Below, in pieces: positions 5,618 through 60,740 of a stretch of DNA of 64,000 nucleotides; the stretch's first letter is position 1, and each line of letters starts with the position of its first letter. The notes beneath the pieces were generated by a model, which saw only the letters and a program-made list of their open reading frames with translations, ran no database searches and was not told the DNA's origin. A program made the translations under genes and the position numbers. The DNA is from Candidatus Chlorohelix allophototropha. GTDB lineage: Bacteria; Chloroflexota; Chloroflexia; Chloroheliales; Chloroheliaceae. The DNA is taken from positions 2,108,001 through 2,172,000 of the forward strand of contig NZ_CP128400.1 of the NCBI RefSeq assembly GCF_030389965.1. Reading direction: 5' to 3'.

Positions 5618-6430
5618 TTAGCTGTACACCAGCTTGAAAAGATAAGTAAGGGTGAGGACTATCAGCAGCGCGTCAATGCGGTCGAGCAAACCGCCATGAC
5701 CGGGAATGAGCTTGCCCGAATCTTTCGTATCGAAGCGCCGCTTGAACCACGACTCGAACAAATCGCCGCAGATACCGCCCACCGCCAGCGTCAGCCCAAG
5801 CGGAATAGTATAGTAGAGCGGAATATGCAGAGCCAGCACACCCACCAGCGTAACCCCAACCATGCCCGCCACCGCACCCCCGATTGCGCCTTCTATGGTT
5901 TTGTTCGGGCTGATTTTGGGGGCAAGCTTGTGTTTTCCCAGTAAGCGACCAACAAAATATGCGCCCGTATCGGTACCCCATGTACCCACCAACGCCAGCA
6001 CAATCCACCAGAGTGATTCGTTGCTATCGGCGCGTAAGGTAGCGGCAAGCCCTAGCGGCAAGGCGGGATAAAGCGATCCCAACAGGCTGATGCCCCAATT
6101 GGTGAGGTTACGGAGCGCGGGTTCGTTCGAATTGACAGGGCGTACCAGAATGATTGCGCCGGATATAAGGGCGTAGAGCGCAGTTGCCAGCAACATCAGG
6201 GGCAGCGAGTTGAGGTATCCGGCGAGGCATAAAAACGCTGCCAGCCCATAGCCTAACAACCGTACAGGATTAAATTTGTAAGGCGAGCGCACCGCCATAT
6301 CGTAAAATTCAAATGCGCCGATTACCGCACCGATTGCGGCGAGCAAGGCAGTAGTCTCCACGCTAAAGAACAAAAATAATAGAACGAGCGGGACGAGCAC
6401 CACCGTGCTCAATATCCGCGTGACTAGCAT
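5618..6430 (-). CDS. cdsA: Phosphatidate cytidylyltransferase
   Basis: Integral membrane enzyme of 270 residues that makes CDP-diacylglycerol from CTP and phosphatidic acid, the branch point of phospholipid synthesis. Several hydrophobic helices fill the first 200 residues. The family signature is intact near the C-terminus: SPNKTIEGAIGG, then GDLFESWFKRRFDTKDSG and PGHGGLLDRIDALL with the metal-binding acidic residues. Length is typical for CdsA. It stands alone here, divergent from the HEAT gene at 6584, and its end abuts a dispersed palindrome. Confidence 0.95.
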   Translation of the reverse strand: MLVTRILSTVVLVPLVLLFLFFSVETTALLAAIGAVIGAFEFYDMAVRSPYKFNPVRLLGYGLAAFLCLAGYLNSLPLMLLATALYALISGAIILVRPVNSNEPALRNLTNWGISLLGSLYPALPLGLAATLRADSNESLWWIVLALVGTWGTDTGAYFVGRLLGKHKLAPKISPNKTIEGAIGGAVAGMVGVTLVGVLALHIPLYYTIPLGLTLAVGGICGDLFESWFKRRFDTKDSGKLIPGHGGLLDRIDALLIVLTLTYLFKLVYS

Positions 6431-6583: not shown

Positions 6584-7519
6584 ATGGCAGAAAAGAAATC
6601 TTATAACGAATATCTGGCGATGCTTGCCGATGAAGAGCAAAGCCTGAGCAAACGCATTATTAAACAATTTTCCAACCTTGAATCGGAACAGCAAGCGCAA
6701 TTCGAGCAAGCGTGGGGTACTTTCTCGGTAGAGCGGCGGCGCGAGATAGCCGAAGCGCTGGTAGAATATGCCGAAGAGCAGGTAGAGGAAGATTTTAACC
6801 CGCTCTTCTTATATATGTTACGTGACCCCGATGCTAAGGTGCGGGTTATCGCGCTCGAAGGGCTGTGGGAATACGAAGAACATAATATGCTGCGTATGCT
6901 CATTCCTTTGATGGAAAGCGACCCCTCCGAGGAAGTGCGCGAAAAAGCCACCATAAGCATGAGCCGTTTCGCGCTACTGGCAGAACTGGGCAAGCTACCC
7001 AGTCGCTGGAACAAGAATGTGCATGATAGTTTAATGACCCAATTCCAGAAGAAAACCAATTCGCTGGAAGTGCGGCGGCGTGCCTTAGAAGCGCTTGGCT
7101 ACTTTTCGCAGGATGAGCAAGTGCGCCAGTTTATCGCAGAAGCGTACCAAAGCGACGACGAGTTGTTCAAATCCAGCGCATTGGCGGCAATGGGACGCAC
7201 GGTGGACAAACGCTGGTTGCCTGAAATCGGGCAGGAACTGAGCAACGAATCGCCCGCCCTACGCTACGAAGCGGTACGCGCGGCAGGCGAACAAAGCAGC
7301 ACCGAACTGCTTACCCCACTGCTCAGGCTCACCAGAGACCACGACCCGGAAGTGCGCTTGGCAGCAATTTGGGCGTTGGGACAGGTGGGCGGACAAGAAG
7401 CCACCCGCACCCTGAAAGTTCTTGCCGAGAGCGAAAGCACCACTATACGTGAAGCCGCAAAGGAAGCATTGGCAGAGATTGTCTTTAGCCAAAACCCCCT
7501 CAATGTAATTGATTATTAG
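6584..7519 (+). CDS. HEAT-repeat protein
   Basis: Soluble 311-residue protein with no signal peptide. After an acidic coiled N-terminus (residues 1-75) it consists of repeated helical pairs such as DPDAKVRVIALEGLWEY, DPSEEVREKATISMSRF and DHDPEVRLAAIWALGQVGG, typical of HEAT/PBS-lyase-type repeats. Such proteins serve as binding scaffolds; no catalytic motif is visible. The start ATG at 6584 follows GGAG at about 12 bases. It is divergent from cdsA and appears to be a single gene ended by the hairpin at 7529-7565. The partner is unknown. Confidence 0.8.
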   Translation: MAEKKSYNEYLAMLADEEQSLSKRIIKQFSNLESEQQAQFEQAWGTFSVERRREIAEALVEYAEEQVEEDFNPLFLYMLRDPDAKVRVIALEGLWEYEEHNMLRMLIPLMESDPSEEVREKATISMSRFALLAELGKLPSRWNKNVHDSLMTQFQKKTNSLEVRRRALEALGYFSQDEQVRQFIAEAYQSDDELFKSSALAAMGRTVDKRWLPEIGQELSNESPALRYEAVRAAGEQSSTELLTPLLRLTRDHDPEVRLAAIWALGQVGGQEATRTLKVLAESESTTIREAAKEALAEIVFSQNPLNVIDY

Positions 7520-8008
7520 CCGGAATAGCGGCGCGCACCCTAAGTATCCGACCCGGTACGCGCCGTTACCTCATTTCGATTGAGCAATACCCCGCCACAG
7601 TCGAGTAATAATCAAATCCCTAATCCCAAGAAACTCTTATTAAAATATTTTTATTAATCTTCTTTTTAACATTGACAACCGTAAATTATGATGTTACCAT
7701 GAGTAATTAAATAGATTACAGTGCCTGCCTAAAGGTTTACTAAAATTTATCTAAATGCTTTATTAATAAGTCTGTATTAACAGCAAAGAGTAAGTTTGCA
7801 TTTCAGCCTGAAATATCCTCCAAATTGTGAGATATACCTCTACTTTAATAGCAATTAAAATGAGAAAAGTGTAATTTAAAAAGCGCTTTTTCAATAAAAA
7901 GTTTATTTCTAGCTGAACATGCATAATTAAATATATATTAAGATAATCCGCACCTAGTTGGGTTTAAGGTGCTAGAGGCTAAGGGTAATTAGCCGTGGGG
8001 TCGTTTCA
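7520..8008. other. AT-rich intergenic region with hairpin
   Basis: A 489-base gap. Near its left end is a hairpin with arms CGGCGCGCACC (7529-7539) and GGTACGCGCCG (7555-7565), 10 of 11 pairs, probably a transcript end for the HEAT gene although it lacks a T tract. The rest is very AT-rich with no ORF or recognisable RNA and presumably holds the promoter of the next gene. Confidence 0.5.
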
Positions 8009-8032
8009 TTGAGTGGAGTTGGAGGGACTATT

Positions 8033-9403
8033 TTGTATTGGTCTGAATTAATTGAGAAATTTGAACAGCAAACTGCGCTTATCGGCATTATTGGGTTAGG
8101 AAATACAAATTTGCCGCTGACGAGGCTTTTTGCACAAGCAAAGTTTAAGGTGTTCGGTTACGATGTAAGGCAAGCGCTTGTTGAGGAATTGCGCGGCGGT
8201 GTATCGTATAATGCAAGTATCACATCCCTCGATCTTATAAAATTGTTGGAATCGGGTTTGTTCCACCCTACCGCTAATTTTGAAGAATTGCGGGATGCCG
8301 ATGTTTATATAATCTGCCTCCCTACCACCCTTAATAAAGAGCGCAAGCTCGACCTCAGCTATATTGAGAATGCTGTCGAAGCGTTGCTTGAAATCTGGGA
8401 ACCGGGCAAACTGATAATTGTCGAATCAATTCCCTATCCCGGCGCTATCGATGAGCTATTCTTGCAACCCTTTAGTAAAAGGGGCTTAATTCCTGACAAG
8501 GATTTCTTGCTGGCGCTGAGTCCTGAACGGGTGGAAGAAATTGATAAAAAATACGAGTTGTCGCAAATTCCAAAGATATTAGGCGGCATAACCCCACTCA
8601 GTAGCAAAATTGCTACTACCCTTTACAACATGGTGTTTGACCAAATAATTCCGGTCTCAAGCGTGTTGGCAGTCGAATTGACCGAGTTGCTAGAAACCAG
8701 CTACCGACTCGTCAATACCGCCCTGATAAACGAGTTTGATGAGCTTTGCCAACGGCTGGGAGTAAGTACCACCGAGATAATTACCGCTGCTAAATCCAAC
8801 CCGTCCGGCTTTAGAGCTTTTTCTCCGGGTTCTGGGAGGGTTAGAGATTACCCCCCGATGGAATTTCACAATAAAAACAACCTCTCCAATTATGAGCCGC
8901 GCTTGGTGGGGCTGGCAAATGAGATTAATCGTGACCGTTCCCGCCAGTTAGTTTACCGAATTATGGAAAAGTTGAACCAGTTAGGCAAGCCCTTAATTTG
9001 GGCGAAGGTTCTTGTACTAGGAATTGGTGAGCAGCTTGAAAAGTTCGGGATGTGGGACTCCCCTTCGGTTACGCTGATTGAAGAGCTTATGCTGAAAGGG
9101 GCGGTTGTTACCTACAGCGACCCCAATGTGCGGCAAATTACCCTGCAAGATGGACGCGAACTTCAGCACAATCACTTGAGCAGATTGCTATTGAAAGATA
9201 CCGATTTGGTGGTTATTACCATCCCTTATTCGATGTTCAATTACCAATTGCTAACCGAATTTGAGGATAAAGTGCTGGATGTCAGCGGGGTTAATGATAC
9301 AAAGCCGGAAGTTATCAAGCTGCTACGCGAAAAAGAAACTACCTTAGTATATCAACCCTTGTCGGTCAGCTCGACCGCTAACGCAAAGCGAAACGCTTCG
9401 TAA
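8033..9403 (+). CDS. UDP-glucose/GDP-mannose dehydrogenase family protein, probably inactive
   Basis: Protein of 456 residues with the three domains of nucleotide-sugar dehydrogenases (WbpA/UDP-GlcNAc dehydrogenase branch): NAD-binding start IGIIGLGNTNLPL, central dimer helix TYR..NTALINEFDELC, and C-terminal UDP-binding part LVLGIG...DSPSVTLIEELMLKGAVVTYSDP. Active relatives have a glycine-rich GHCIP loop with the catalytic Cys; here that loop reads GRVRDYPP and the Cys position is Tyr (codon 8849-8851). The third glycine of the Rossmann GxGxxG is Asn. Oxidation is therefore unlikely, and a regulatory or structural role is inferred. TTG 8033 was chosen because GGAGGG stands six bases before it; TTG 8009 is the alternative. 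No sugar genes are adjacent. Confidence 0.75.
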   Translation: MYWSELIEKFEQQTALIGIIGLGNTNLPLTRLFAQAKFKVFGYDVRQALVEELRGGVSYNASITSLDLIKLLESGLFHPTANFEELRDADVYIICLPTTLNKERKLDLSYIENAVEALLEIWEPGKLIIVESIPYPGAIDELFLQPFSKRGLIPDKDFLLALSPERVEEIDKKYELSQIPKILGGITPLSSKIATTLYNMVFDQIIPVSSVLAVELTELLETSYRLVNTALINEFDELCQRLGVSTTEIITAAKSNPSGFRAFSPGSGRVRDYPPMEFHNKNNLSNYEPRLVGLANEINRDRSRQLVYRIMEKLNQLGKPLIWAKVLVLGIGEQLEKFGMWDSPSVTLIEELMLKGAVVTYSDPNVRQITLQDGRELQHNHLSRLLLKDTDLVVITIPYSMFNYQLLTEFEDKVLDVSGVNDTKPEVIKLLREKETTLVYQPLSVSSTANAKRNAS

Positions 9404-9416
9404 GAAGCCATAACAA

Positions 9417-9445
9417 AAGGGCGCATTCCGGTGCGCCCTTCTTTT
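9417..9445 (+). terminator. Terminator formed by a family A palindrome
   Basis: AAGGGCGCA and TGCGCCCTT form a 9-bp stem with a six-base loop, followed by CTTTT, 14 bases after the dehydrogenase stop. The core is a member of the dispersed palindrome family, here acting as a Rho-independent terminator. Confidence 0.7.
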
Positions 9446-9559
9446 ATTGCCCCAATCCCCTGAGATTTGTGCTTGTGCCAATCGCGCTTTTCCCGCTATA
9501 ATAATCGCGTAGTTTAGCGATGGTTTAACCTGCGTTTTAGCCTTGCCGGGGATAATGCC

Positions 9560-12500
9560 TTGAGTCAGCACGAACCGCAAAAACATTTCTTCATCAGCTA
9601 CAACAAAGCCGACAAGGGTTGGGCGGAATGGGTCGCTTGGCTGCTTGAGCAGGATGGCTACTCCCTCACCATTCAAGCGTGGGATTCGCTGCCGGGTACT
9701 AACTTCGCGGTTTATATGCACAACGCGATTATTTCCTCGCAGCGCATTATCGCTATCCTCTCTGATAATTATCTGAACTCGCTTTACACTCTACCGGAGT
9801 GGGCAGCTTTTTTCACCGATGACCCCACCGGAGAGAAACGGCTGATTATCCCCGTGTTAGTGGCAGAGTGCGACTCTAAGAAGCTCGGCTTGCTCAAGTC
9901 GCTCTCTCGCATCAAGCTGCTCGGCAAGGAGGAGGCGCAAGCGCGCGAGGAATTGCTCGAAGAAATTCGTAAAACCCTCAAAGGTACGGGCAGACCGGAT
10001 ACCGCCCCGCGCTTCCCCGGAATGGTGCAAACCGCTAACGATTCTAGCCCTGCCCCGCGCTATCCCGGCACGTTCCCGCCCATCTGGAATCTTACCCATC
10101 AGCGCAACGCCTTTTTCACCGGGCGCGAGGATTTGCTGGATGCCCTCGAATCGGCGCAGACGAACGCGATTACTCAAGCGGTGGCGGGTTTGGGCGGAGT
10201 GGGCAAGACCCAAACGGCGGTGGAATACGCTTACCGCAACAAAGAGCGGTTCGATTTGGTGTGGTGGGTCAACGCCGAGTTCGCGACTTCCCTGCGCTCT
10301 GACCTTGCTGATCTCGCTTTCAAGTTAGGCTTGGCAACGCAAGGCGCAACCGAACAAGCCGAGGCGATTGCCCTCGCCCTTCACTACTTACGCACTTGCC
10401 CCACCCATTGGCTGTTGGTGCTGGATAACGTGGAAGAACCCGCCGACATTCGCCCTTATCTACCGAACGGCGGCAACGGGCAAACCCTGATTACCTCGCG
10501 CTACAACGGCGATTGGGGCAAGAGCATCAAGCCTTTGTTTGCTCAAATATGGGGGCAGAGCCAGAGCGTGCAGTTCCTTGAAAAGCGCACAGAACGCAGC
10601 GAAGCAGCTTTCGAAGAATTGGCGCAAGAGTTGGGGGGCTTGCCGTTGGCGTTGGAACAGGCAGCCGCCTACATGAATGCGAAATCCAAGAGCGGGGAAT
10701 CGTACCTAGAGCTGTTCAAGAAGCGGAGAATGGAATTGCTGAAGCGGAGCAATGCGCCGGAGGATTACCACAACGACACGGTTGCCACCACTTGGGAGAT
10801 TTCGTTCAAAGCGTTGGGGGAAGCGAACCCGGCGGGAGCGGAGTTGCTGGAGTTGTGCGCGTGGCTAGGAGTGGCGGAAATCCCCTTCAGCCTGTTCCTT
10901 GAGAATGCGGAGGAATTGCCGGAGCGGTTGGAAGCAACGGCGGGGGATGAACTGGACTGGGACGACGCAATCGGGGCGATAAAACGCTATTCGCTGGCGG
11001 AGGTAAGCGGGGAAGGGCTGACGCTGCACCGCTTGGTGGGGCTGGCATTGCGGACGGCGCAAGGCACGGACACCGCAAGGCTAGAGCAAGCGGCAAAGCT
11101 GCTGTGGGCGGCTTACCCTGATGTGGAATTTGAGACGTGGGAGGATTGCGGGCGACTGCTGGAAGTGGGGATGGCGGTGGCGGGCTACGCCGAGGAACGG
11201 GGCGCGGCATTGGCAGCGGCAAGCTACCTGTACAACCAGATTGCGCTTTACCTGCAAAATGCGCGAGCGGACTACCGGCAAGCGTTGCCCCTCTTCCAAC
11301 GCGCCCTTGCCATTAGTGAGAAGATGCTAGGGTCTGAACATCCTACCGTTGCCATTCGCCTCATCAACATGGGGGGCTTGCTTCGGGAGATGGGAGAATA
11401 CGCCTCCGCCCTGCCCCTCTTCCAACGCGCCCTTGCCATTGATGAAAAGGCGTTAGGCGCAGAGCATCCTGACATTGCCACAAACCTCAACCACCTTGGG
11501 AGTTTGCTACAGAATATGGGAGAATACGCCTCCGCCTTGCCCCTTTACCAACGCGCCATAGAAATTGGAGAGAAAACGCTAGGCTCTGAACATCCTGATG
11601 TGGCTGTGTGGTACAACAACATGGGGGTCTTGCTAAAGGCGATGGGAGAATACGCCTCCGCCCTGCCTCTTTACCAACGCGCCATAGAAATTGGAGAGAA
11701 AACGCTAGGCTCTGAACATCCTACCGTTGCTACCCGCCTAAACAACCTTGGGAGCTTGCTACAGGATATGGGCGACCTGCCCTCCGCCCTGCCTCTTTAC
11801 CAACGCGCCCTTGCCATCCGGGAGAAACAGTTGGGCGAGTTCCATCCCGATGTGGCGCAAAGCCTCAACAACATGGGGGACTTGCAAAGGGATATGGGAG
11901 AATACGCCTCCGCTCTGCCCCTCTTCCAACGCGCCATAGAAATTGGAGAGAAAACGCTAGGGAAGGAACATCCTACCGTTGCCGCCCGCCTCATCAACCT
12001 TGGGTTATTGCTACAGGATATGGGAGAATACGCCTCCGCCCTGCCTCTTTACCAACGTGCCCTTGCCATTGATGAAAAGGTGTTAGGCGCAGAGCATCCC
12101 GATGTGTCTTCCAGTCTCAACAACCTTGGGAGCTTGCTACAGGCTATGGGCGACCTGTCCTCCGCCCTGCCTCTCTTCCAACGCGCCCTTGTCATTAGTG
12201 AGAAAACGCTCGGTTCTGACCATCCCACCGTTGCCATTCGCCTCGGCAATCTGGGAGGATTGTTAAGGGGCATGGGACAACTGCAAAACGCCCTGCCTCT
12301 TTACCAACGCTCTCTTGCTATCCACGAAAAACAGTTGGGTGAGTTCCATCCTTACGTTGCGATAGGTTGTTACAACCTTGGGAGCTTGCTACAGGATATG
12401 GGAGACTACGCCTCCGCCCTGCCTCTTTGCCAACGCGCCCTTGCTATCCGGGAGAAACAGTTGGGCGAGTTCCATCCCGATGTGGCGCAAAACCTCAACA

Positions 12501-12835
12501 ACCTTGGGTTATTACTAAAGGATATGGGCGACCTGCCTGCCGCCCTGCCTCTCCTCCAACGCGTCCTTGCCATTGATGAAAAGGCGTTAGGCGCGGAGCA
12601 TCCCGATGTGGTGAGAGATCTCAACAACCTTGGCGTGTTGCGGTATAAGATGGGGGAACGGGCGGAGGCGGAGCGGTTACTTTCCCGCGCTCTGGAAATT
12701 TGCCTCAAGAAGTTCGGTTCGCGGCATCCCGATACACAAAATACGGCGGAGTGGTTGGAAGAGGTGCGGGGTTCGGACGCAAAACAAGTAGGCAAGCAAA
12801 AGTTCAGGAAGATTAAGTGGCAGCGAGGGGAGTAG
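9560..12835 (+). CDS. TIR / NB-ARC / TPR STAND protein
   Basis: A 1091-residue NLR-like protein. Residues about 8-140 form a TIR domain (FFISYNKADKGWAEWV; the Glu in LPEWAAF is at the position of the NADase catalytic Glu). Residues about 185-560 form an NB-ARC NTPase with P-loop GLGGVGKT (210-217) and Walker B WLLVLDNV. Residues about 571-1065 hold eleven 42-residue kinesin-light-chain-type TPRs plus a partial twelfth. Bacterial proteins of this architecture are often antiviral sensors in which ligand binding by the repeats opens the NTPase and the TIR domain destroys NAD+; that role is inferred here. TTG start with GGGG about ten bases upstream. It stands alone and is followed by a cluster of dispersed palindromes. 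Confidence 0.85.
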   Translation: MSQHEPQKHFFISYNKADKGWAEWVAWLLEQDGYSLTIQAWDSLPGTNFAVYMHNAIISSQRIIAILSDNYLNSLYTLPEWAAFFTDDPTGEKRLIIPVLVAECDSKKLGLLKSLSRIKLLGKEEAQAREELLEEIRKTLKGTGRPDTAPRFPGMVQTANDSSPAPRYPGTFPPIWNLTHQRNAFFTGREDLLDALESAQTNAITQAVAGLGGVGKTQTAVEYAYRNKERFDLVWWVNAEFATSLRSDLADLAFKLGLATQGATEQAEAIALALHYLRTCPTHWLLVLDNVEEPADIRPYLPNGGNGQTLITSRYNGDWGKSIKPLFAQIWGQSQSVQFLEKRTERSEAAFEELAQELGGLPLALEQAAAYMNAKSKSGESYLELFKKRRMELLKRSNAPEDYHNDTVATTWEISFKALGEANPAGAELLELCAWLGVAEIPFSLFLENAEELPERLEATAGDELDWDDAIGAIKRYSLAEVSGEGLTLHRLVGLALRTAQGTDTARLEQAAKLLWAAYPDVEFETWEDCGRLLEVGMAVAGYAEERGAALAAASYLYNQIALYLQNARADYRQALPLFQRALAISEKMLGSEHPTVAIRLINMGGLLREMGEYASALPLFQRALAIDEKALGAEHPDIATNLNHLGSLLQNMGEYASALPLYQRAIEIGEKTLGSEHPDVAVWYNNMGVLLKAMGEYASALPLYQRAIEIGEKTLGSEHPTVATRLNNLGSLLQDMGDLPSALPLYQRALAIREKQLGEFHPDVAQSLNNMGDLQRDMGEYASALPLFQRAIEIGEKTLGKEHPTVAARLINLGLLLQDMGEYASALPLYQRALAIDEKVLGAEHPDVSSSLNNLGSLLQAMGDLSSALPLFQRALVISEKTLGSDHPTVAIRLGNLGGLLRGMGQLQNALPLYQRSLAIHEKQLGEFHPYVAIGCYNLGSLLQDMGDYASALPLCQRALAIREKQLGEFHPDVAQNLNNLGLLLKDMGDLPAALPLLQRVLAIDEKALGAEHPDVVRDLNNLGVLRYKMGERAEAERLLSRALEICLKKFGSRHPDTQNTAEWLEEVRGSDAKQVGKQKFRKIKWQRGE
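11273..12755 (+). repeat. Tandem 126-bp TPR-coding repeats
   Basis: Eleven 126-bp units and a partial twelfth encode the kinesin-light-chain TPRs. Blocks such as GCCTCCGCCCTGCC and ACCAACGCGCC recur almost unchanged at DNA level, including silent positions, so the units have been homogenised by recent recombination or duplication. Variation concentrates in the residues around HP(T/D)VA and the following helix. Confidence 0.85.
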
Positions 12836-28920: not shown

Positions 28921-30492
28921 CTACAACTTCATCAACTCCGCTTTAGCATCCTCATCTCCCAAGTCGGCGGCTTTTTGGAAATCGCGCCGGGCTGCCTCTT
29001 TATTATTTAGCTTCTTATAAGCCAAACCCCGCCCGTAGTAAGAAAGATCATCATTAGGATCGAGACGAATGGCTTGGTCAAAATCCTGAATGGCGCGTTG
29101 GTATTCTTTTAGTTCAAAGAAAACACTGCATCGGTTTTGGTAAGCAAGAACATAATTAGGGTCAAGACGTATAGCTTGGTCATAGTCCTGAATAGCACGT
29201 TGATACTCGTTTAGATTTTTGTAAGCTAAGCCCCGGTTGTTGTAGGCAACTGCTAAATTAGGGTCAAGGCGTATAGCTTGGTCATAGTCCTGAATGGCAC
29301 GTTGGTACTCGTTTAGATTTTTGTAAGCTAAGCCCCGGTTGTTGTAGGCAACTGCTAAATTAGGGTCAAGGCGAATGGCTTGGTCATAGTCCTGAATAGC
29401 ACGTTGGTACTCGTTTAGATTTTTGTAAGCCAAACCTCGGTTGTAGTAGGCGATGGCAAAATTAGGGTCAAGGCGAATGGCTTGGTCATAGTCCTGAATG
29501 GCACGTTGGTACTCGTTTAGACAATCGTAAGTGCTACCCCGGTTGTGGTAGGCACTGGCTAAATTTTGGTCGAGGCGAATAGCTTGGTCATAGTCTTGAA
29601 TAGCACGCTGGTATTCTTTAAACTTATAATAAGCGTTACCTCGATTGTAGTAGGCGATGGCATCATTTGGGTCGAGTCGGATGGCTTGTTTATAATCCTC
29701 AAAAGCTTTCTGCTCTTCTTTGATTTCACCGTAAGCGAAAGCACGCCAAAAGTAGTAATCAGCTTGCCCTTTATTGAAATTAATGGCTTGGCTGAAATCG
29801 GCTATTGCTTGCTCATAGTCGCCTGTTTCCCTGTAGTTTGTACCCCGCTCATAATAAGCGTTGGCAATTTTCGTTCGTACTTGCCGATGTCCCGCATCCA
29901 GCGTTAGCAAGCGGTTACCTAGCCGAATTGCTTTATCCCACTCCTTCGCCTTTTCCGCTGCTTCCAATTGCGCAAACAGTTCATCAAATGGGTCAGAATC
30001 GTGGGTGGGCAGCGATGCAGGCGGTTTTGTTACTTTGAGCGTTCCCGCTACCGCAATGCTGAGACTTTCGGCGCGTAATTGCAGCGATTTTATCAACCGC
30101 TCATGTCCACGCTCATCGTAGTAGTTAACCCACTGCCATTCTTTGAGTCGGCGCGGTATCTCGCAATCGGTCAATTTGAGGGGGATGATAAATATCCGAT
30201 TTTCCGGCATGTAATCCGCGTAGCTTAACGCCACCTTGATTTCGCGCTGCACGTAACCCTCTTTGTCAATGGAAGCGGGGGAGAGGCACACCAAGATTAT
30301 ATGGCTCTGCTCTACTGCTTTCTCGATTTCATCGCGCCAAGTCTGCCCCGGTAGCAATTCTTCTTCGTCCAGCCACGGGTGAATCCAGCTTTCGGCTTTG
30401 AGGCGTTGGTACAGTTCGCGCACCGCCTTTTTATCGCCAGAAGAGTGGCACAGGAATACTTTTAGTTTGGAGTTGTCGCTTGCCGCTGCCAT
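28921..30492 (-). CDS. TIR-TPR protein
   Basis: Protein of 523 residues. N-terminal TIR domain (about 8-145): LKVFLCHSSGDK, WLDEEELLPGQTW, HIILVCLSP and the conserved Glu of GYVQREIKVAL, the last being the likely NADase catalytic position. A linker with DPFDELFAQLEAAEKAKEWDKA leads to about nine 34-residue TPRs (about 210-510) of the form EYQRAIQDYDQAIRLDPN. Two of these repeats are identical. The TIR domain is nearly the same as that of 37969-39354, where it is joined to a lectin-type domain instead. ATG 30492 lies 20 bases after a duplicated promoter block. A defence or signalling role is inferred. Confidence 0.85.
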   Translation of the reverse strand: MAAASDNSKLKVFLCHSSGDKKAVRELYQRLKAESWIHPWLDEEELLPGQTWRDEIEKAVEQSHIILVCLSPASIDKEGYVQREIKVALSYADYMPENRIFIIPLKLTDCEIPRRLKEWQWVNYYDERGHERLIKSLQLRAESLSIAVAGTLKVTKPPASLPTHDSDPFDELFAQLEAAEKAKEWDKAIRLGNRLLTLDAGHRQVRTKIANAYYERGTNYRETGDYEQAIADFSQAINFNKGQADYYFWRAFAYGEIKEEQKAFEDYKQAIRLDPNDAIAYYNRGNAYYKFKEYQRAIQDYDQAIRLDQNLASAYHNRGSTYDCLNEYQRAIQDYDQAIRLDPNFAIAYYNRGLAYKNLNEYQRAIQDYDQAIRLDPNLAVAYNNRGLAYKNLNEYQRAIQDYDQAIRLDPNLAVAYNNRGLAYKNLNEYQRAIQDYDQAIRLDPNYVLAYQNRCSVFFELKEYQRAIQDFDQAIRLDPNDDLSYYGRGLAYKKLNNKEAARRDFQKAADLGDEDAKAELMKL

Positions 30493-49993: not shown

Positions 49994-50596
49994 CTATAGC
50001 ATTATTTGACTTACTTCAAGTTTTTTAATCTTTTCCCAAGCTACTCTTCTTATTGATTCCTGCGAGTGATTTCGATATAGCCAACTAAGGGTCGGTAAGA
50101 TAGTAATATCTTCGAACTTGGCTAGAGCTTCGACTATTTCTACATTAATTGGCCTATTTTGGCAAATTAAAATGAGCGGTTCAACCGCTTTTTTCTCATT
50201 CAAATCGCTTAAAGCCTTTGCTGCACTAGCCCGTACAACTAAACTTTCATCTTTTAAGGCTTCTATCAAATAACCTACTACTTGCGGACTAGCAATTGTT
50301 CCTAGCGCACTTACACTTCTCATTCTAAGCCAAGCATCTTCACTTTTTAGGCTATTGAGAAGAAATCCAATTGCCCCATCATCCTTAGTCTCACCTAATG
50401 CCCATACAATTACCTGCTGCCATTTGCTTTCATTATGTATGTGTATATAGGTAAGTAGTGGCTTTACCGCTCTACCTCTACCTATTTTTCCTAAAGCAAG
50501 AATACTGGCGCTTTTAATTTCATCATCCTCAGCAGAATCATCCATGATATTGAGAAGAGCCTCAAAAGCATTGCTATCTCCAATCATGTCTAAAGC
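49994..50596 (-). pseudogene. HEAT-repeat gene, 3' part split off by an IS
   Basis: C-terminal part of a HEAT-repeat protein: ALDMIGDSNAFEALLNIMDD, then pairs such as DAWLRMRSVSALGTIASPQVVGYLIEAL. It joins the 5' part at 52021-53280 once the IS and one copy of the 9-bp target are removed, in frame, giving 617 codons. By itself it has an ATG at 50599 that lies in the IS end, so any product would be artificial. Confidence 0.85.
50588..50596. repeat. Target duplication, left copy
   Basis: GTCTAAAGC, identical to 52021-52029 on the other side of the IS. Confidence 0.9.
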
Positions 50597-52020
50597 CATC
50601 AGTTACAAGTTAAGGGATTAGGAGATAAGTCAAATCAATACGAGGTGAAAAAAAGCCCTATTCCAATTACAATAGGGCGATGGAAAAAGAAGAAAAACCA
50701 CCAAAAAAAGCGAGTAGTGTGCGGCATACCAGAGCCATCGCCCTTGATCGCTCAAAAAGACCCACGATCGCTCCCCCGCCCGAAGAAATCGAGCAACTGC
50801 TGGCGGAAGTGGTGCAACCCAACACTTTTAGTCTGATCCGGCTCTATCAGGAAATGGGCTTACGGGCGCGTACTCTGACCCTGCCAGTAATGCTGGCTTT
50901 CGTCCTCAGTCTGATCTGGCGTCAGATCGGGGCCGTCTCTGAAGCGGTCAGAGTAATCAAGCAAGAAGGAATGTTATGGCAGCCGCCGATCAGGGTCACT
51001 CAGCAAGCGATCAGTCAACGCCTGCGGGAAATGCCAGCGGCTCTGTTTGAAGCGGTCCTAAACGAAGTGCTGCCCCTGATGCACCAGCGTTGGCGCCAGC
51101 GTCAGCGTCCTCTGCCACCTGAGCTGCAAAGGGTTTTAGCCCACTTCAGCCGGGTGGCCGCGGTGGATGGTTCCACCCTGGATGCTTTGATCAAGAAAAC
51201 CGGTTTACTGCGAGAAATAGAAGGCAGCGTCTTAGCGGGGAAAATGATGGGTTTGCTGGATGTAGCCAGCCAGTTACCCCTCAAAATCTGGTATGGTGAA
51301 AATAGCGCAGCCCACGATCAGAGCTGGTGGGAAGCCATTATCGAGACTTTGGAAACAGAGAGTTTGACGCTGTTTGATCTGGGCTTTGTAAATTATGGCC
51401 GTTACCGGCAGTTGACGGTGGAGCACAAGTACTTTGTGACACGGGTAAAAAGTAGGATGGACTACCGGGTGGTGCAAGCGCTAACCAATGAGGAGGGAGT
51501 GCGGGAGTGGTTGATCGCGGTGGGTTCCAAAGAAGAGAAAAGTGAGCAGGTACTGCGTCTGGTGGCAGTGGAATGGGAGGGGAAAAGTTATTGTTATTTG
51601 AGCAATGTGTTGGAGAGGTCCCGTTTAACTGGAGCTACGATAGCCTATCTTTATCGCCAGCGGTGGCGGATCGAGGAGGCTTTTAAGGTAGTAAAACGGC
51701 AGTTGGGTCTGGCTTATTTTCACGCCGGCAGCATAAATGCGATCTGCCTGCAGGTCTGGGCTACCTGGTTATTGTATTGTGTTTTGATAGACTTGACCGA
51801 CAGCGTAGCGGAAGAACTAAAACAACCTTTTAAGGCAATCTCAGTAGAAATGGTCTATCGGGGGTTATACCATTACAGCCAGGCCTTAAAGCGGGGAGAA
51901 ACCTTGAGTGTTTCTCAGTATCTGGCTCAAAATGCCAAGTTATTAGGGATTGTCAAACGCCCTTCCAAAAGACCTCTTCTTATTTGACATTTACTTTGCT
52001 ACCTTAACTTGTAACCTATG
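50597..52020. mobile_element. IS4-family insertion sequence
   Basis: A 1424-bp element with imperfect terminal inverted repeats of 19 bases, CATCAGTTACAAGTTAAGG on the left and CATAGGTTACAAGTTAAGG (read inwards) on the right. It is flanked by a perfect 9-bp direct repeat, GTCTAAAGC, at 50588-50596 and 52021-52029. Target length and transposase signature are both typical of the IS4 family. Confidence 0.92.
50680..51987 (+). CDS. IS4-family DDE transposase
   Basis: Transposase of 435 residues occupying most of the element. The first catalytic Asp is in AAVDGSTLDALIKK, the second in LTLFDLGFVNYGRY, and the Glu in the YREK signature YRQRWRIEEAFKVVK (Y-x2-R-x3-E-x6-K), followed by the usual RNase-H helix. 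It runs in the opposite direction to the gene it interrupts. The frame is complete, so the element may be active. Confidence 0.93.
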   Translation: MEKEEKPPKKASSVRHTRAIALDRSKRPTIAPPPEEIEQLLAEVVQPNTFSLIRLYQEMGLRARTLTLPVMLAFVLSLIWRQIGAVSEAVRVIKQEGMLWQPPIRVTQQAISQRLREMPAALFEAVLNEVLPLMHQRWRQRQRPLPPELQRVLAHFSRVAAVDGSTLDALIKKTGLLREIEGSVLAGKMMGLLDVASQLPLKIWYGENSAAHDQSWWEAIIETLETESLTLFDLGFVNYGRYRQLTVEHKYFVTRVKSRMDYRVVQALTNEEGVREWLIAVGSKEEKSEQVLRLVAVEWEGKSYCYLSNVLERSRLTGATIAYLYRQRWRIEEAFKVVKRQLGLAYFHAGSINAICLQVWATWLLYCVLIDLTDSVAEELKQPFKAISVEMVYRGLYHYSQALKRGETLSVSQYLAQNAKLLGIVKRPSKRPLLI

Positions 52021-53280
52021 GTCTAAAGCGTAAATCACTTCCAGACGGATTTCTTTATCCGGATGCTTCAGCCTTGTAAGAAGTGCAGGTAATGCTCTTG
52101 TATCCTTGAGTTTTCCAAGATGCTCCAATAAAACTAATAGAACCCTGACTTCATTTTCTTTCAGCAATAAATTCGCTAATGGAACTGCTGCATTTGGCGG
52201 ATCAATCCGGTATAACGCTTCAATCGCTGCACCCCGCACTTTATTTTCGCGGTCTTGTAAACAGTTCATAATAGCGATTTCTACCAGTTTATTTCCGCCG
52301 CCTATTTTTTCCAGCACCGCTAAAACTTGCTCTCTTACTTCTGGATAAGAATCATTTAAGGCTGTGAGCAAAGGCTCTATTGCAGCTTTATTGCTCAATT
52401 TCTTCAAGCCAATTGCCGCTAGTTCTCTTACTTTTGGATTCAAGTGCTTCAAGAACAAAACCAATTCTTCTAAAGCTTCAGGATATTCACCGACTGTTTC
52501 AACAAGAGCTATTTTGAAGATGAAGTCTTCTTCCTCATCCAGGATTATTTCAAGTAGAGCTTGTAATATTCTATTATCACGAAAACTTCTCAGGGCTTTG
52601 GAAGCCTCTGAGCGAATGTTAAAGGATTTGCCGTTAGTTGTCTCATCTTTATTTTTCACGACTTGGAGTAGAATTTCGATTGCTTTTTGATCTCCAATAA
52701 AACCCAACACCCTTACAATATTCAGTCGTTCCTGATAATCACTCACTTCTTGGAGTCTAGAAATAAGATTCGGTACTAACGTTGAATCAAATGCAGCCCA
52801 CATTGGCAACATTTCTTTGAATTGTTTAAGCCTCACCCTATCAAGAAATTCTGGTTCTAATAATTGTGAAGTGCAAAACTTAGCACAAAAGTAATTTTGT
52901 AACCGTACGCCTTTGAAACATACCAACTGCTCTGTCTGAAATATTAACCCGGCAGTTGTAGCCCAACCCAACAATTCTTCTGCTTCTTGCTTTTCTTCTA
53001 TCCTCAAAGGTGCTTCTTTTTGAGGCGAATCTTTTCGTGTTTTAATCCGAAAAAGCCATTTCAGAGCGATATTTAAATCAATTGCGTCAGCCCAAACTGG
53101 CGTATAGGTTGCATCGTTTGATTTGTTACCAGAGGTATATTTTGAGTCAGTTAGGTTGAAGGCTAAAATGGAAAGCGCTTTGTGCAATTGCTCAATCCGG
53201 TCAGAAGGTATCTTATTCATCTCAGCGAGATGCGCTATTCTTTTATTTACGTATATTTCTAAATGATTAATAGCATTCAT
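52021..53280 (-). pseudogene. HEAT-repeat gene, 5' part split off by an IS
   Basis: N-terminal 420 codons of the split gene. About residues 1-150 look like the helical region that precedes the repeats in NACHT-type proteins (AEELLGWATTAGLIFQTEQL, QNYFCAKF). Then HEAT repeats from about residue 160 onwards (VSDYQERLNIVRVLGFIGD, LNPKVRELAAIGLKKLSN, DSYPEVREQVLAVLEKIGG). The reading continues into the IS for 11 codons (to 51991). With its 3' part the original protein would have 617 residues. There is no NTPase domain upstream, so the gene is either truncated or NTPase-free. Confidence 0.85.
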
Positions 53281-59858: not shown

Positions 59859-60740
59859 GAGCGTTTCTTAAAACTGAGTAAAGAAGAAAGTTGAAATAAA
59901 AAAGAATAATGGGTAAGCTCGTATTATGAGTACAAGAAAAGCTTACCCTACCGACCCGAGCGATGCCGAGTGGGAAATCATTATGCCATATTTCCCCCCT
60001 AACAGTCGAGAAGGTCGTCCCAGAGTACATCCCTATCGTGAAATAGTCTGCGCCATCTTCTACTTACTCAAAACTGGTTGCCAATGGGAAATGCTTCCAC
60101 AAGAGTTTCCTCATTGGAAAACAGTCTATCACTACTACCGTCTGTGGCGCTGGAACGGTCTTTGGCAACGTATTTACGAGGCACTACACCAAAAAGTGCG
60201 AGTTAAGGCAGGACGAAATCCCCAACCCAGCGCTGGTATCATCGATAGCCAGTCAGTAAAAACCACCGAAGTTGGAGGAATACGGGGTTACGATGCAGGA
60301 AAAAAGGTGAATGGGCGCAAGCGGCACCTGCTGGTGGACACCTTGGGCTTTCCGATCGTGGTCAAAGTACAAGCTGCGAATATACAAGATCGAGATGGGG
60401 CAATAGAAGTGCTGGCCACTGCTGAGAATAAATGCCGTACCCTGAAGTTGGTATGGGCGGATGGAGGTTACAGCGGAAAGTTGGTAGAGTGGGTGGCTGG
60501 AATGTTCGATTTTGAACTGGAAATAGTCAAACGCACCGACGATATTAAAGGTTTTAAGGTACAACCGCGTCGTTGGGTAGTAGAACGGACGCATGCCTGG
60601 ATCGGGCGGAACCGACGAATGGCGAAAGAGTATGAGCGTTTACCACAGCATTCGGAAGCCAATATTTACATTTCTATGATCCGTTTGGCTCTCAAAAGGC
60701 TTTCTAAACTTTCGCCTTGATCTAGTTTTAAGAATGGCTC
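59859..60740. mobile_element. IS5-family insertion sequence
   Basis: An 882-bp element. Ends GAGCGTTTCTTAAAACT (left) and GAGCCATTCTTAAAACT (right, read inwards) match at 15 of 17 positions, and both are flanked by TTA (59856-59858 and 60741-60743), fitting the 3-bp TNA target of the IS1031 group. Confidence 0.87.
59926..60720 (+). CDS. IS5-family DDE transposase
   Basis: Single-frame transposase of 264 residues. N-terminal DNA-binding part (YPTDPSDAEWEIIMPYFPP, FYLLKTGCQWEMLPQEFPHW) and catalytic Asp in IIDSQSVKTTEVGG, second Asp in LVWADGGYSG, Glu in RRWVVERTHAWIGRNRRMAKEYE. The DDE triad is intact, so it may be active. ATG 59926. Confidence 0.93.
   Translation: MSTRKAYPTDPSDAEWEIIMPYFPPNSREGRPRVHPYREIVCAIFYLLKTGCQWEMLPQEFPHWKTVYHYYRLWRWNGLWQRIYEALHQKVRVKAGRNPQPSAGIIDSQSVKTTEVGGIRGYDAGKKVNGRKRHLLVDTLGFPIVVKVQAANIQDRDGAIEVLATAENKCRTLKLVWADGGYSGKLVEWVAGMFDFELEIVKRTDDIKGFKVQPRRWVVERTHAWIGRNRRMAKEYERLPQHSEANIYISMIRLALKRLSKLSP

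Follow-up and report, generated by a model that had tools for sequence, protein, structure and literature searches.

The window, a stretch of 64,000 nucleotides on contig C2 (2.45 Mb) of the 6.09-Mb, five-contig genome of 'Candidatus Chlorohelix allophototropha', contains an open reading frame of 456 codons (8033–9403, + strand). The frame begins with TTG, and a Shine-Dalgarno-like GGAGGG, found by direct reading, lies 6 nt 5' of the start (8021–8026, +). Upstream are a cdsA-like gene (5618–6430, −) and a HEAT-repeat gene (6584–7519, +), and downstream is a gene for a TIR-NB-ARC-TPR protein (9560–12835, +). Directly 3' of the stop codon there is a terminator-like hairpin (9417–9440) with a 10-bp stem, followed by a T-rich tail (together 9417–9450, +). 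The segment 9404–9455 folds at −20 kcal/mol (z = −4.05), and by a simple terminator scan alone such sites are no commoner than in shuffled sequences. The hairpin suggests that the transcript probably ends directly behind ORF 8033–9403. At the other end the transcript may be shared with the HEAT-repeat gene; there are six promoter-like sites, which is not above the 3.9 expected by chance. We found no sign of a leader RNA, the interval 7400–9700 having no Rfam match and a folding z-score of −1.25.

The HEAT-repeat and cdsA-like genes are present in all four other genomes of the family but never on the same contig, and on these grounds we rejected a link between them and the ORF; the four genomes are drafts, in which separate contigs alone are no proof of distance. 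Among the frames around the HEAT-repeat gene in one of these relatives (L162) we saw no dehydrogenase relative. A link to the TIR-NB-ARC-TPR gene was also rejected, because the hairpin terminator lies in between and the ORF had no PADLOC match. The three neighbors seem to point to no pathway. Elsewhere in the window, a second TIR-domain protein with a long TPR array is encoded at 28921–30492, and NB-ARC occurs only in the one at 9560–12835. A DDE transposase gene (50680–51987, +) sits between two HEAT-repeat frames on the opposite strand (49994–50599 and 51991–53280), so that the interval 49994–53280 looks like an insertion sequence splitting one HEAT-repeat gene. An IS4/5-type transposase frame at 59926–60720 and the frame at positions 11065–11859 of another locus (L165, C2:2264000–2278000) are both 264 codons long and may be copies of one element.

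The protein is a full-length homolog of nucleotide-sugar dehydrogenases, as a preliminary description of this DNA had proposed. It matches TIGR03026 (E = 2.6e-66) with a score of 224.1 bits, above the curated cut-off of 189.8, and its frame is open throughout, as was also claimed. Two Pfam domains exceed their gathering scores (PF03721, 85.4 against 27; PF00984, 37.6 against 25.4), and PF03720 falls just under its own (27.2 against 30). A Foldseek search with the predicted model gave Protein Data Bank entry 4r16 as the top match (E = 5.2e-26), and all 50 matches listed belong to the nucleotide-sugar dehydrogenase family, judged by their titles. Sequence identity is low: the closest relatives that we obtained, including the two nearest paralogs in the same genome, are 32–38% identical to the ORF.

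Where the family has the catalytic loop GPGxGGHCIPxDPxYLxW, the alignments place GSGRVRDYPPMEFHN (residues 266–280; 8828–8872, +), which is three residues shorter around the catalytic Cys and Asp and has lost both. The preliminary description had reported that the catalytic Cys is missing and that codon 8849–8851 encodes Tyr in its place. The first statement holds in either alignment register. The codon is indeed TAC (Tyr273), but Tyr273 lies opposite the Cys, and Glu277 opposite the Asp, only if the loop is aligned without gaps; in the gapped register with a three-residue deletion, on which MAFFT and HMMER agree, these positions are taken by Val270 and Pro274. The protein has only two cysteines, Cys95 and Cys239, neither of them in the catalytic loop. 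We rejected both as replacements: Cys95 occupies a column that is at least 90% conserved and position 239 has Cys as its consensus, so neither is new. We also rejected a local frameshift in the loop; one other frame, inspected by eye at about 8800–8900, has no GGHC-like stretch, and the losses at residues 218, 222, 334 and 341 sit elsewhere.

A Cys motif (GGHC or GGSC loop) is present in all 140 other rows of our 141-row alignment, to which ORF 8033–9403 is the sole exception. Eight further loci lie outside this alignment: six have the Cys motif (one of them, L006, is the same gene as the paralog L003 discussed below), L065 has Thr, and L007 has neither motif. Loci were chosen by their similarity to the ORF, and 80 of the relatives were picked with patterns made from the ORF and three Cys-bearing members, so the set is no census of the superfamily.

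The losses extend well beyond the Cys loop. The preliminary description had correctly identified Asn as the third residue of the GxGxxG glycines: the NAD loop (residues 21–26; 8093–8110, +) reads GLGNTN, with changes Y24N, V25T and G26N relative to the family's GLGYVG. Its further claim that the rest is intact does not stand, because the protein has also lost the catalytic Lys, Asn, Thr and Asp positions and, toward the C-terminus, a Lys, an Asp and an Arg. The segment ESTTYPG has become ESIPYPG (residues 131–137; 8423–8443, +), without either Thr. The segment VELTELLET (residues 214–222; 8672–8698, +) stands where the family has AE[ML]xK[LI]xEN, so that the Lys and Asn of the ExxKxxxN motif are replaced by Glu218 and Thr222; the catalytic Asp is Pro or Glu, depending on the register. 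Near the C-terminus, GVAYKxDxxDxRESP is replaced by GIGEQLEKFGMWDSP (residues 330–344; 9020–9064, +), with loss of its Lys, Asp and Arg. By contrast SPER (residues 163–166; 8519–8530, +), which holds the catalytic-Glu position, is retained. At columns that are at least 98% conserved among 131 homologs, the changes include K218E, N222T, T134P, K256N, H269R, K334Q, D339G, R341W and R418S, among others; T133I affects a column with 90% conservation.

The available portion of a study of human UDP-glucose dehydrogenase (UGDH) names Lys220, Cys276, Asp280, Thr131 and Asn224 as residues that make up or border the active site, and states that replacing Asp280 with Asn is detrimental, that Cys276 mutants leave the reaction unfinished, and that Lys220 mutants are strongly reduced (PMC3184952). 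Matched by motif and spacing, human Thr131 corresponds to the ESTTYPG segment, and Lys220 and Asn224 to residues 218 and 222 of the ORF. The catalytic losses far outnumber those that the preliminary description had recognized, and the sequence thus gives good support for the absence of oxidative function, better than was first argued. ORF 8033–9403 very probably encodes a dead enzyme. With most of the reaction center lost, a job other than sugar-nucleotide oxidation is therefore probable.

It is very improbable that the protein is an active dehydrogenase in which another residue replaces the Cys. Nine superfamily members (L065 and L166–L173) lend this idea some plausibility by having Thr at the catalytic position while keeping the Lys and Asn, and in 8 of 9 cases the Asp, but ORF 8033–9403 also lacks the Lys, the Asn, the Asp and the third Gly, and its two remaining cysteines are at columns where Cys is common in homologs. 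Still less credible is a sequencing or assembly artefact. The gene is known from one genome only, but its changes are spread over many separate motifs within one open frame, and a closed genome is reported for 'Ca. Chlorohelix allophototropha' L227-S17 in the available part of its publication (PMC10972752).

The Thr-bearing proteins form a clade of their own. L065 is a 587-amino acid frame (+) in another genome of the family, with the sequence AGGTLARD at the catalytic loop, its Lys and Asn kept, and tandem repeats of QHQLTEQHPTGGT between its central and C-terminal parts. When L065 was used as the query, 30 loci were listed, of which eight (L166–L173) have Thr and 22 have Cys at the catalytic position. 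The shared motif is AGGTLxRD, except that L171 reads RE, and the NAD loop is GLWHLG or GIWHLG in the seven of the nine in which it was read (all but L171 and L172). Plasmid records from Rhizobium and Lawsonia are 46–54% identical to the part of L065 that was searched. Our guess is that these proteins are dehydrogenases that carry out the first oxidation only.

To quantify the divergence of ORF 8033–9403, we used the 66 aligned columns that are at least 98% conserved in the 131 GGHC homologs, plus two fully conserved columns that are deleted in the ORF. It keeps 39 of these 68 near-invariant columns, and the next lowest among the 131 are L029 (59/69) and then L133 (64/68). With eight gap columns set aside, retention by class is 18/32 for polar columns, 16/23 for Gly/Pro and 5/11 for others. 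What is kept includes the SPER Glu position, ESxxYPG minus its Thr residues, a PT motif, Arg225, Asn228, Asn233 and Glu234, and the retained polar columns include E131, S132, E165, R166, R225, N228, N233 and E234. The 18 retained polar columns are what might be expected of a repurposed protein, one whose original cleft now serves another ligand or reaction through the SPER Glu, ESxxYPG and PT. We consider repurposing unlikely, because the substrate loop (267–280) is shorter and modeled with low confidence, the NAD loop, Lys218, Asn222, Lys334 and Arg341 are lost, and no relative is available that could define a new motif.

We searched for orthologs and found none. In the five genomes of the family, one of which is its own, the top matches other than itself are 33–38% identical and have the Cys motif. 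Among 158 genomes of the class, nothing but the ORF itself reached E = 1e-78; among 400 genomes of the phylum there was no ortholog, with 37 genomes reaching 1e-72 and the 30 loci listed, self aside, being 34–37% identical. Scans of genome contigs found nothing above 37% identity (in the pattern scan, among the 80 listed of 591 matches), viral contigs likewise yielded nothing above 37% and no relative by close scan, and the 10 plasmid matches listed, of 634 records, are 33–36% identical. A fast-evolving ortholog could be concealed among the weaker matches. In a phylogenetic tree the terminal branch leading to ORF 8033–9403 has a length of 4.6 changes per column, which is too long for a firm placement.

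The lack of an ortholog in the family, class and phylum genomes searched, the very long terminal branch, and the drift seen in all three domains are consistent with a decaying gene that was inactivated long ago, has stayed open by luck and has no function. Several observations make decay quite unlikely. Neutral drift at the conserved columns after loss would amount to about 0.55 replacements per site, and 12–16 stops would then be expected in 456 codons; none is observed, and the chance of this is about 1e-7 to 1e-5. The stop test assumes that change at conserved columns was neutral, and fewer stops would be expected after a burst of selected change; selected change in the active site would weaken the figure, yet it would in turn imply a function. 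For 60 columns, at least 98% of rows have a hydrophobic residue although its identity varies; 56 of these are still hydrophobic in the ORF, against about 79% expected under a rough model (P = 0.002); for all hydrophobic columns, 74/86 are kept (P = 0.06). The gene also has a start signal and a terminator, and its predicted fold is confident. An AlphaFold model built with 36 homologs shows the family fold (pLDDT 82.3, pTM 0.80), and pLDDT is below 50 at 169–171, 267–280, 335–341 and 420–456, which correspond to dead loops and the tail; poor alignment in these parts may be a contributing cause. Codon usage gives weak support for maintenance: the score of 0.031 exceeds those of the shifted frames (−0.019 and −0.094) and is below the middle, 18th from the bottom among 45 ORFs in the window, 17 of which score lower, although not all of these are confirmed genes. 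We conclude that the gene is likely to be maintained by selection. The preliminary description had suggested that the protein is kept for a non-oxidative function; the loss of oxidation is borne out by the many missing catalytic positions, and the open frame, the 56 hydrophobic columns and the predicted fold support the word 'kept' indirectly.

ORF 8033–9403 combines lost catalytic residues, an open frame and a predicted fold, as a pseudoenzyme does. It is best read as a lineage-specific, catalytically dead family member that is kept as a folded protein, with a role that we infer. We give a probability of roughly 0.6 to the whole explanation, which is as follows. The protein would be a fast-evolving member of the UDP-ManNAc/UDP-GlcNAc-type dehydrogenase branch, which we take to be WbpA-like. 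Its chemistry would have been lost through the changes in the NAD loop and at the positions of Cys, Asp, Lys and Asn, all read from the sequence. It would have been retained as a folded protein, as the predicted fold, the hydrophobic columns and the unbroken frame suggest, from a transcript that probably stops right behind the gene. Its most likely work would then be non-catalytic, perhaps as a scaffold, a regulator or a sensor of ligands that pairs with itself or with one of the two motif-complete paralogs of this genome.

Enzyme homologs that have lost their activity often turn into regulators. We propose the pairing role only tentatively, as a possibility with somewhat less than even odds. 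The central domain, which is the dimer-forming domain in human UGDH according to the portion of PMC3184952 available, is the part of ORF 8033–9403 that has diverged most, with a mean identity of 0.37 to the family against 0.64 among its members, and this drift counts against the guess that the protein is a dimer partner. A more specific version, in which the active paralogs make exopolysaccharide precursors and the protein is their regulatory or scaffolding subunit, is doubtful. A literature search that covered few subscription papers found no nucleotide-sugar dehydrogenase homolog with such a non-catalytic regulatory or scaffolding role, and a search under UDP-glucose dehydrogenase and UDP-glucose 6-dehydrogenase found no pseudoenzyme. 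In a wider search of the pseudoenzyme literature, the portions of the sources available mentioned the family names only in work on polymyxin-resistance genes. As an orphan gene without relatives or a pathway, the ORF shows only that the fold can outlast most of the active site.

The nearest solved structures, both by sequence and by predicted fold, are two UDP-N-acetyl-D-mannosamine dehydrogenases: 4r16 from Pyrococcus horikoshii (phmmer E = 3e-34, with the Foldseek E-value of 5.2e-26) and 3ojl, Cap5O of Staphylococcus aureus (phmmer E = 7.2e-26, Foldseek E = 2.1e-23). ORF 8033–9403 shares their fold over nearly its full length, and has the SPER and VNxAL-NE segments in common with them, but it is only 25–26% identical to them, its NAD loop is without the third Gly, and the catalytic Cys, Lys, Asn and Asp are missing. 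Similarly, its predicted model has the fold of human UGDH in Foldseek, but it has no equivalents of Cys276, Asp280, Lys220, Thr131 and Asn224, as matched by motif spacing to the available text of PMC3184952.

Within its own genome, the two paralogs L002 and L003 belong to the same family, are 33–38% identical to the ORF, and have complete catalytic motifs. Judged by eye from the translations, L002 adjoins a glycosyltransferase-like gene, and L003 (in L165) has as its neighbors an epimerase-like gene, a large fusion of glycosyltransferase-like and membrane parts, and one more large frame, in what is presumably a Pel-like exopolysaccharide cluster. ORF 8033–9403, in contrast, adjoins no glycosyltransferase-like gene. 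The Thr clade resembles it in lacking the catalytic Cys, but differs in keeping the Lys and Asn, and mostly the Asp, and in being spread over nine genomes. Being present in several genomes, that clade may be a better lead on what this family is able to do without its cysteine.
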